From Halieaceae bacterium (GTDB lineage: Bacteria; Pseudomonadota; Gammaproteobacteria; Pseudomonadales; Halieaceae): a stretch of DNA of 46,291 nt. The stretch is taken from the NCBI GenBank assembly GCA_030066555.1, contig JASJBK010000001.1, positions 1-46,291 on the forward strand, written 5' to 3'. A program made the translations under genes and the position numbers. Below the pieces are notes generated by a model. It did not search any database. It was not told the origin of the DNA and saw only the letters and a program-made list of their open reading frames with translations. This document shows positions 35,413-38,255 of the stretch, piece after piece. Every line of letters begins with the position of its first letter. Within the stretch, counting starts at the first letter, position 1.

Positions 35413-36125
35413 GGCCACAGCACCAGGGCAATCATGCGCAGCGCCAGCAGTGACACCAGCAGGCGAAACCACAACAGGAAGTTGACCTCGGGAATGAACT
35501 GCCGCAGCCGGGTACCCAGCCAGGAGCCCAGCATCACGCCGGCGATCATGCCGCCCAGCAACAGGCCGTACTGGCTGAAGCCGAAGCCGAGCGCGGCGAA
35601 GGCCAGCACCCGCAACAGGTGATTGGCCGACATGTATACCGCGGTGTTTACCACCAGCCAGTCCCGTCGCGGGTTGCGCCGCGCCAGCACCGCGCCGCCC
35701 AGCGGCCCGGTGGCACCGACCAGCATACCGATTCCGGTCTGGTAGACCCCAAGCAGCACCAGCGGCAAATTCCCCTCGCCCCGGACAGCCGGTAATGGCG
35801 TCCAGGTCACCACCAGGATGAAGACCCCGATCAACGCAGGCAGCCAGTCCAGCTGCAATTGGGAAAACACCAGTGCGCCGGCGGCGGCGCCGATCACACC
35901 GCCCACCGCAAAGGGCAGCAGCAGGCTGCGATCGATATGACGCCAGCCGAACAGGGCCCGGGACCCATTGCTGGCCAGCTGCGTGGCAGCGTGCAGCGGC
36001 AGGATGGCAGCGGCCGGCACCAGGCCAGGCATCAGGGTAATCAGCGGCACGCCGCCGCCCATCCCGAAGACGCCGGCCACGGTAGAAGTCAGCAAGGCGA
36101 TGGGGACCAGCCAGAATTCGCTCAA
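35409..36125 (-). CDS. TauE/SafE-family permease
   Basis: ALLTSTVAGVFGMGGGVPLITLM...ATQLASNGSRALFGWRHID...LGVYQTGIGMLVGATGPLGGAVL. Confidence 0.88.
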   Translation of the reverse strand: MSEFWLVPIALLTSTVAGVFGMGGGVPLITLMPGLVPAAAILPLHAATQLASNGSRALFGWRHIDRSLLLPFAVGGVIGAAAGALVFSQLQLDWLPALIGVFILVVTWTPLPAVRGEGNLPLVLLGVYQTGIGMLVGATGPLGGAVLARRNPRRDWLVVNTAVYMSANHLLRVLAFAALGFGFSQYGLLLGGMIAGVMLGSWLGTRLRQFIPEVNFLLWFRLLVSLLALRMIALVLWP

Positions 36126-36775
36126 GTGCCCGCCTCGTCCGCCTCGACGATTTCCGGCTCGGCGCGTCCCAGTTCCACCCAGCTCTTGACGTCCGGGTCG
36201 GCAAATACGGTTGCCATATAAGCGTGCGCCGGCGCGGGCAGCTCAACCTGGTAGTTATGGAAGCGGATAGCCACCGGAACGTACATCACGTCCGCCAGTG
36301 AAAAGCCGCCGAACAGCCAGGGACCGCCATGCTCATCGAGACAGGTCGCCCACAGGCTGCAGACCCGGTCGATATCGGCCTGGAGCGCATCATCAACCGG
36401 CACGCGGCGCTGCTCTGCCCGGCAGTTCATCGGCATGCGGGCGCGCAGTTCCAGGAAGCCAGAGTGCATCTCCGCCATCATGGCACGCGCCTCGGCGCGG
36501 GCGGCGCTGTCTGCGGGCAGCAGGCGGCCGCCTGCCCAGCGCTCGTTGGCGTACTCGGCAATAGCCAGTGAATCCCACACCACCAGGCCTTCATCGCGCA
36601 GCACAGGCACCCGCCCGGTCGGCGACAGGTCGGGGATGCGTTCCGCGAACTCATCGGTGTCCAGGGGCAACCGCAGCTCTTCGAAATCCGCACCCGCCTT
36701 GCGCATAGCCAGCCAGCCGCGCAGCGACCACGATGAATAGTTCCTGTTACCGATGACAAGGACCGGTTTGCCCAC
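36122..36775 (-). CDS. Glutathione S-transferase family protein
   Basis: LVIGNRNYSSWSLRGWLAMRKAGADFEELRLPL...LSPTGRVPVLRDEGLVVWDSLAIAEYANER. Confidence 0.92.
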   Translation of the reverse strand: MGKPVLVIGNRNYSSWSLRGWLAMRKAGADFEELRLPLDTDEFAERIPDLSPTGRVPVLRDEGLVVWDSLAIAEYANERWAGGRLLPADSAARAEARAMMAEMHSGFLELRARMPMNCRAEQRRVPVDDALQADIDRVCSLWATCLDEHGGPWLFGGFSLADVMYVPVAIRFHNYQVELPAPAHAYMATVFADPDVKSWVELGRAEPEIVEADEAGT

Positions 36776-36942
36776 GGGAGTGTCTCCTCAGCTGAAAGCA
36801 GGATACGAGCACGGCGGGAGGGCTGCGCTCGGGGGCGCATAGCATACACCCTGTCTGCCATTCACGTGAGCGCGCTGACTTCAGGCAGGCGGAGGCTGTA
36901 TGGAATTCAGGTGTTGAGCTCCCTGGTGACGCACGCGCAGTA

Positions 36943-37038
36943 CCTGGTAGGTTTCCGGGACACGCTAAAAGCTTGACGTCCATGTCTCGCTCGACTGCGG
37001 CCATCCATGGCCGCAGACGGTCCCGGAAACCTACCAGG
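36943..37038 (-). repeat. Structured repeat copy C: 19-bp outer inverted repeat enclosing a 10-bp inner hairpin and a conserved core
   Basis: CCTGGTAGGTTTCCGGGAC (36943-36961) / GTCCCGGAAACCTACCAGG (37020-37038); inner CTGCGGCCAT-CC-ATGGCCGCAG (36995-37016); minus-strand core GAGCGAGACATGGACGTCAAGCTTTTAGCGTGTCC. Confidence 0.93.
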
Positions 37039-37116
37039 CACTCCGCGCGCTCTGGGGGTGCAATTCTGGATTTTCTAGCTTCGGCACTAGCAAGCCGAAT
37101 TCCAGCGCTGATATGA

Positions 37117-37250
37117 GGGCGTGGGCTGGGCCTACCCCTCACAGGACCGTAAACGGCCATGGATGGCCGTTTCCGAGCGAGCCATGGACGGCATGCTTTT
37201 AGCGTGTCCGGTGAGGGGTAGGCCCAGTGCACGCCCTCCCTACGGAGCAC
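37117..37250 (+). repeat. Structured repeat copy A: same architecture, different outer arms
   Basis: CTGGGCCTACCCCTCAC (37126-37142) / GTGAGGGGTAGGCCCAG (37211-37227), extended by GGGCGTG/CACGCCC; inner AAACGGCCATGGATGGCCGTTT; core GAGCGAGCCATGGACGGCATGCTTTTAGCGTGTCC. Confidence 0.93.
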
Positions 37251-37273
37251 TAATCCCGACCTGGTCCAGTGCC

Positions 37274-37349
37274 AAGCGAGACTTGGACGTCATGATGTTA
37301 GCGTGTCCGTGGAAGCCCCTTCACAGTTCGCGTCCTCGCTACGGAGCAC
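37274..37349 (+). repeat. Structured repeat copy B: partial copy, ungapped alignment with 37175-37250
   Basis: AAGCGAGACTTGGACGTCATGATGTTAGCGTGTCC...CCTCGCTACGGAGCAC; same ends as copy A (CTACGGAGCAC), diverged middle; offset 99 bp. Confidence 0.85.
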
Positions 37350-37379: not shown

Positions 37380-38255
37380 TCAGTCGTTCTGCAGGAAATC
37401 CAGGCAGAGGCGGTTGAACATGGCCTCGTGCTCGACCATCACCCAGTGGCCGCATTCAGATACCAGCACCAGGCGTAATTGCTTGCAGTGTTTAGTGAAG
37501 TTGGCAATGCCGCTCTCGGGCATCATGCGCTCGTTCAATCCCCAGAAGCCCAGCACCGGACAGCGCAGGTCGGCCAGTCGTTCGCTGAGCTCGGGAATCT
37601 GCATCGAGGACATGACCTGGCCGTTCATGAGCTGCATGACCTGCATGCGCTCGTTCACGAGTTCGTCAGTGGCAAAGCGCGGGTCGTGCATCAGTCCGAA
37701 GGCGAACAGGTCTTTCATCACCTCATGGGTGACGGGCTCGCCTGAACCGTAAACCTGGAAGAGCTTCTGCATGCCCGGCATCTGGCCGTACTCCTCCATG
37801 GTGCTGAGGCCGCCAGGCGCCATCAGGATCAGCTTCTCCACCAGCGCCGGTCGCGCCAGCGCCAGGCCGATGGCGATCGCGCCGCCCAGTGAATTTCCCA
37901 CCACCGTGCACTTGTCGACGCCAATGGCATCGAGCGTCTGCGCTACGCAATCGACGAAGAAGTCGAGGGTATAGGTTTCATTCTCGGGCTTGTCGGAGAA
38001 ACCAAAACCGACGATGTCGAGCACAATGGACCGGTAGCCACTAGCTGCGATGTGTGGGTAATTCCCCTTGAAATTGCTATGACCGCTGGCGCCGGGGCCG
38101 GAGCCGTGCAGCCACAATACCGCCGGCCCCTCACCACAGTCGAGGTAGTGCATGCTGTAGCCGTTAACACAGGCGGCGTAGCGGTGCTCGGGAAGCGAGC
38201 CATTCAGCTGTGGTTCACTCCCCTTCCAGGGCGCGGCGCCGGTTCCAGGCGTCAC
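37380..38255 (-). CDS. Alpha/beta-hydrolase, meta-cleavage product hydrolase-like (HsaD/BphD/MhpC type)
   Basis: VLWLHGSGPGASGHSNFKGNYPHIAASGYRSIVLDIVGFGFSDKPENETYTLDFFVDCV...VVGNSLGGAIAIGLAL...ECGHWVMVEH. Confidence 0.85.
   Translation of the reverse strand: MTPGTGAAPWKGSEPQLNGSLPEHRYAACVNGYSMHYLDCGEGPAVLWLHGSGPGASGHSNFKGNYPHIAASGYRSIVLDIVGFGFSDKPENETYTLDFFVDCVAQTLDAIGVDKCTVVGNSLGGAIAIGLALARPALVEKLILMAPGGLSTMEEYGQMPGMQKLFQVYGSGEPVTHEVMKDLFAFGLMHDPRFATDELVNERMQVMQLMNGQVMSSMQIPELSERLADLRCPVLGFWGLNERMMPESGIANFTKHCKQLRLVLVSECGHWVMVEHEAMFNRLCLDFLQND

Follow-up and report, generated by a model that had tools for sequence, protein, structure and literature searches.

A divergent pair and a truncated copy of a high-copy TwoAYGGAY repeat in Halieaceae, with compensated stems and candidate CsrA sites

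Our analysis indicates that the intergenic repeat cluster studied here is probably a divergent pair plus a truncated copy of high-copy, non-autonomous Halieaceae TwoAYGGAY repeats, presenting two candidate CsrA sites. The cluster lies in a window of 46,291 nucleotides, which is a complete contig of the host genome (Halieaceae bacterium; a 3.2-Mb, 86%-complete MAG). A preliminary description had recognised no described family in it, a view that has to be revised: the repeats belong to the catalogued Rfam motif TwoAYGGAY (RF01731), since both full copies, which lie on opposite strands, exceed its gathering cut-off of 43 bits (47.7 for copy A, 44.5 for copy C) and each encloses two AYGGAY-type loops in an outer stem that covaries. 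Within Rfam, RF01731 and CsrB are both members of clan CL00106, and a CsrA role for the motif has been proposed earlier (PMC4333381). MicroRNA families also matched the same arms, far below their cut-off, and were rejected as reflecting only the long hairpin.

At the locus, copy C is the left (L) element, on the minus strand at 36931..37050 (100.4 bits with our own model R1), in which 37050-37020 pairs with 36961-36931 around the core. Copy A is the right (R) element, on the plus strand at 37115..37238 (R1, 97.7 bits), and its outer stem joins 37115-37147 to 37206-37238 (inverted repeat I3). The arms of both are 90-91% complementary and their cores are 85% alike in inverse orientation, which confirms that C and A are inverted repeats with a common core and layout. 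Judged by sequence, fold and conservation, L carries candidate CsrA sites in loop 1 (AUGGAU on a stem closed by C-G, 37003..37008, minus strand) and loop 2 (AUGGAC, 36978..36983, minus strand); sequence and conservation point to the same in R for loop 1 (AUGGAU, 37159..37164, plus strand) and loop 2 (AUGGAC, 37184..37189, plus strand). Between the two elements lies a 64-nt spacer (37051..37114) with a weakly conserved AGCTTCG motif, identified by spacer comparison. R is followed by the terminal motif CTACGGAGCAC (37240..37250, plus strand), which recurs in R copies as CTACGRAGC and which, read in reverse complement, has GTAG at the hairpin foot. Copy B (37272..37349, plus strand; direct repeat D1, 74% identical to 37173-37250) had been described as the core and the same end around a different, short hairpin; it does keep the CTACGGAGCAC end, together with hairpin 2 and the 3' arm, but is really a truncated R' copy that lacks the 5' arm. 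Each strand folds far better than its shuffled versions (z about -11, 0 of 200 shuffles as good). The cluster is bordered by the 3' end of a minus-strand gene (37380-38255), which we take to be an alpha/beta-hydrolase gene from its sequence, and by the 5' end of another minus-strand gene (36122-36775), presumably glutathione-S-transferase-like.

Pairing within the units is beyond doubt, given the slid controls and how large the effect is; the units have an outer stem, or clamp, of 25-31 bp and two inner hairpins. In alignment A1 (68 copies from four related species, 37-pair structure) 99.0% of cells are paired and 25 pairs have changed on both sides. Covariation scores 0.636, compared with at most 0.126 for slid structures and 0.140 (sd 0.008) for shuffles, which overstate significance because the copies are related. 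When 3' arms are swapped whole between copies, pairing falls from 98% to 59%, and mean identity among host-genome copies is 44% in the 5' arms and 87% in the cores. At orthologous loci 172 pair positions differ between copies, and 124 of them have gone from one Watson-Crick pair to another; these comparisons are not independent, because some share copies. The first inner stem likewise has double changes, with no G-U cell in the 68 copies. The preliminary description had reported arms that differ in sequence yet stay complementary and had read them as selection on structure; the former holds across all 68 aligned copies, and the covariance model and covariation test that it proposed bear out the latter, far above both kinds of control.

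The mismatches that do occur are strongly polarised. In a perfect DNA palindrome neither strand is the sense strand: a single change that reads as G-T in one reads as A-C in the other, and the two mismatches should be equally frequent. Over outer-stem positions 0-30 of 27 copies chosen by their core only, we counted 66 G-U and 2 A-C (binomial p 1.6e-17, uncorrected for ancestry), a count that is core-anchored and position-fixed and does not carry the finder bias of the following ones. Counted over all genomes as distinct genome-position-pair events, the numbers are 28 vs 4 at positions 6-16 and 110 vs 9 at positions 17-28, both mildly biased because the finder scores G-U above A-C; alignment A2, selected by stem score, was for that reason left out of the G-U rates. 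In folding energy, too, the sense strand has the advantage over its complement, by 8-13 kcal/mol (-96.1 vs -88.2 and -90.4 vs -77.3 kcal/mol). The excess of G-U over A-C argues that selection acts not on a symmetric DNA palindrome but on one strand, the one of TwoAYGGAY sense, as RNA or, less likely, as single-stranded DNA. In the inner part of the clamp G-U is about 2%, below what might be expected from drift with selection on RNA alone, and arm-to-arm correction may add to the pattern there.

The repeat is abundant and dispersed. A genome-wide search with the core, as the preliminary description had suggested, gave 47 matches in the host genome and none for the reversed pattern, so that copies C and A do not owe their likeness to chance, and RF01731 gave 22 at E <= 0.001. 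With model R1, built from 51 copies of many species, we found 54 copies in the host genome and, in three congeners, 26, 45 and 43; of 38 relatives, 25 carry the repeat, with up to 65 copies per genome. The relatives that share the core are Halieaceae MAGs. RF01731 matched in 31 of 118 relatives, in none of 14 control genomes and strongly in 15 of 369 genomes sampled from the class, where the matches are partly divergent neighbours (e.g. G384:C1 460963- and 461240+). Neither the window sequence nor the core had a match among plasmids, phages or IMG/VR. Many contigs of the host MAG end in or beside repeats (C11, C12, C14, C28, C42, C138, C140, C142 and C149 of G000); the repeat fragments the assembly, and its copy number is therefore a lower bound. 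One genome of another family (G107, L115-L121) has 18 RF01731 copies, mostly single and with conserved, not variable, arms (GATATGGGGTAACAGGG...), and elsewhere in that genome are six IS200-like transposase copies of equal score.

Copies are of two types, L and R. The standard unit is a divergent L and R pair with 227-230 nt from core to core, and among loci with two intact copies across genomes 37 are arranged as '-+' and 1 as '+-'. The flanking genes of 68 loci are convergent in 37 cases, tandem in 25 and divergent in 6; a crude count of background intergenic gaps without elements gave 6, 37 and 25, respectively. The spacer is only weakly conserved, often with GCTTCG near its centre, and truncated R' copies recur, following at 98-102 nt (a spacing of about 99 nt). 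Longer pairs (319 nt and more) carry in their spacer an inverted pair of CGTCATTCCCGCGAAGGCGGGAATCCAG, seen as CGTCATTCCCGCGAAGGCGGGAATCCAG / CTGGATCCCCGCCTTCGCGGGGATGACG in C14, C132, C234 and C255 of G000 (L033, L039, L048, L050). This inverted pair resembles CGTC-tagged REPs (PMC3733652) and is also like Neisseria dRS3. At one locus (L141:1091-2092, G006) the stretch separating L from R holds a MazE-like antitoxin gene (PF04014) and a PIN-domain gene (PF01850), as though a toxin-antitoxin cassette were carried by, or inserted in, the pair spacer. Five loci (L107, L139, L203, L208 and L144) have a GC-rich insertion of 13-20 nt at one and the same site of the first inner hairpin, in its 3' strand (GGCC[CGGGCGGCGATCC]GCG).

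By sequence, both loops match the high-affinity CsrA/RsmE site C-A[N]GGA[N]-G. Among 150 model-aligned copies, loop 1 reads A[N]GGA[N] in 137 and is closed by C-G in 142, its exceptions being mostly stem insertions that retain GGA, and loop 2 does so in 149 and 150, respectively. Variation is limited to the N positions, and the N of loop 1 is sometimes absent; RsmZ loops bound by RsmE occur in a 6-nt form and in a 5-nt form without N, under the rule A(N)GGAX (PMC4005645). Of 133 copies, 128 have their two GGA motifs 20-26 nt apart, and since one CsrA dimer bridges sites 10-63 nt apart (PMC7652899) the two loops are in range for bridging by a single dimer. Each unit thus has the features of a CsrA-type target, A(N)GGAX stem-loops, at least two of them, at a bridgeable distance (PMC4005645, PMC7652899). 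A point against CsrA binding is the first inner stem, which exceeds that of most CsrA ligands from SELEX in length and stability; most of those ligands have four or fewer contiguous pairs (PMC7652899). The host genome has a csrA gene whose canonical product retains the RNA-contacting Arg44. CsrA is present in 109 of 118 relatives and did not predict the repeat (Fisher p 0.44), a comparison that is uninformative because CsrA is nearly universal.

The mechanism that we consider most likely is that the unit acts as sense RNA, in which the 25-31 bp clamp would hold two C-A(N)GGA(N)-G loops toward both faces of a CsrA dimer. Given the divergent order of the units and their usual place between convergent genes, a transcript that runs through the gene junction from either side would carry one sense unit, which would fold into the clamp with its two loops and be bound on both by one CsrA dimer. 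In 3' regions and read-through RNA the pair would most likely serve as a CsrA dock, a sponge or a CsrA-stabilised RNA end; locally the 3' end could be protected or destabilised, and globally many units could titrate CsrA. The letters of the clamp would drift with compensation, since pairing alone would matter. More tentatively, and with somewhat less confidence than doubt, we propose that this is a mobile family that spreads CsrA docks as orientation-proof pairs, whose transposition rewires or buffers the regulator, with cores homogenised within each species and clamps locus-specific and compensated.

The units have been gained or lost between sister species, as shown by empty sites, which the preliminary description had proposed to look for. 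We located the orthologous flanks of 15 host loci in sister genomes: C179 is occupied in all those compared, C132, C193 and C261 only in the host, while at the window site G002 has the repeat and G001 and G003 are empty. The empty sites lie in diverged intergenic sequence that masks exact junctions and target-site duplications. Loci shared between species bear a species-typical core (GCCATGGACGGC in the host and GACAGGGACGTC in G002, at C179 and C234), which suggests that cores are homogenised between loci. Dispersal, presence and absence between sister species, pairing like that of REP dimers, a bias toward the 3' ends of genes such as REPs are reported to have (PMC3733652), truncated tandem copies and the GTAG-like foot CTACGRAGC at R ends would all be expected if the repeat were pure mobile DNA of MITE or REP type, its hairpins read as single-stranded DNA by a transposase, its GGA loops contacted by that enzyme and its RNA without function. 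The strand asymmetry fits as well, G-T being the milder mismatch in DNA too, and a pattern scan of the window locus found no promoter. Against this reading, the loops fit the CsrA site wherever that site is constrained and differ only at its two free positions, and the searches point to no cognate Y1/RAYT: no such gene was found in the host genome or in G001, G006, G016 and G023, which hold 21-54 copies, no repeat copy lies within about 2.5 kb of any of the family's 20 Y1/RAYT loci, and RAYT presence is not tied to copy number (p 0.15). We therefore reject RAYT/Y1 as the cognate mobiliser, so that the RAYT acting in trans envisaged in the preliminary description is unsupported, and consider the purely mobile reading unlikely, though it is the strongest competitor of the CsrA-site repeat.

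Divergent transcription of free-standing Csr sponge sRNAs out of the spacer, in place of CsrB/RsmZ, would explain the divergent arrangement, the clan shared with CsrB and a host genome in which CsrB had no match and RsmZ none above cut-off. However, the same pattern scan of the window locus found neither a promoter nor an intrinsic terminator, hence no sign of a free-standing sRNA, the spacer is weakly conserved, and at 86% completeness an ordinary sponge may be absent from the assembly, which makes this reading improbable. A weak RsmZ-like match in the host genome (G000:C258:5363-5509; 22.5 bits, cut-off 44) could be an ordinary Csr sponge RNA. Least probable of all is that template switching within the hairpin (quasipalindrome correction) maintains the arms of an unselected structure, as in the arm-templating alternative of the preliminary description: near-perfect arms, the two-sided Watson-Crick changes at orthologous loci and a first inner stem with double changes and no G-U speak for it, but it predicts equal G-T and A-C where, besides the 66 vs 2, 33 vs 4 are seen in the most perfect zone, and it leaves the invariant loops unexplained, so it is refuted as sole cause and may at most contribute.

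If the CsrA-site reading is true, these repeats would be mobile elements that carry binding sites of a global post-transcriptional regulator. Since 2010 TwoAYGGAY has remained an orphan among RNA motifs, and a dispersed, gained-and-lost, paired repeat with CsrA-type loops turns a vague CsrA idea into a testable system; the alignment offers, besides, a natural case of compensatory evolution with strand polarity that is unusually clean. A literature search for Halieaceae repeats returned no report. The family itself is already catalogued, and what appears to be new is the paired architecture, the hypervariable compensated clamp, the turnover by gain and loss, and the dispersal.

Compared with known systems, the repeats are like REP/BIME/REPIN elements in forming inverted pairs that are scattered through intergenic DNA close to gene 3' ends, with a GTAG-like foot (on part of the ends only) and G-T pairs. 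They differ from them in their stems (25-31 bp, not 5-13 bp), their two-hairpin core and the fact that no associated RAYT was found. With the CsrB/RsmZ-type sponge sRNAs of CL00106 they share several A(N)GGAX loops per RNA on C-G closed stems; unlike these, they come as dozens of dispersed units with two sites each, a long clamp and no promoter or terminator that we could see. Published TwoAYGGAY is a candidate RNA of the human gut, gamma-Proteobacteria and Clostridiales (PMC2864571, PMC4333381), and these descriptions make no mention of dispersed divergent pairs, a hypervariable clamp or empty sites, nor give copy numbers such as the 20-65 per genome found here. The likeness to it lies in the structure, two AYGGAY hairpins inside one outer stem (Weinberg 2010, PMC2864571), and the elements described here, with two AYGGAY loops each, match its name.
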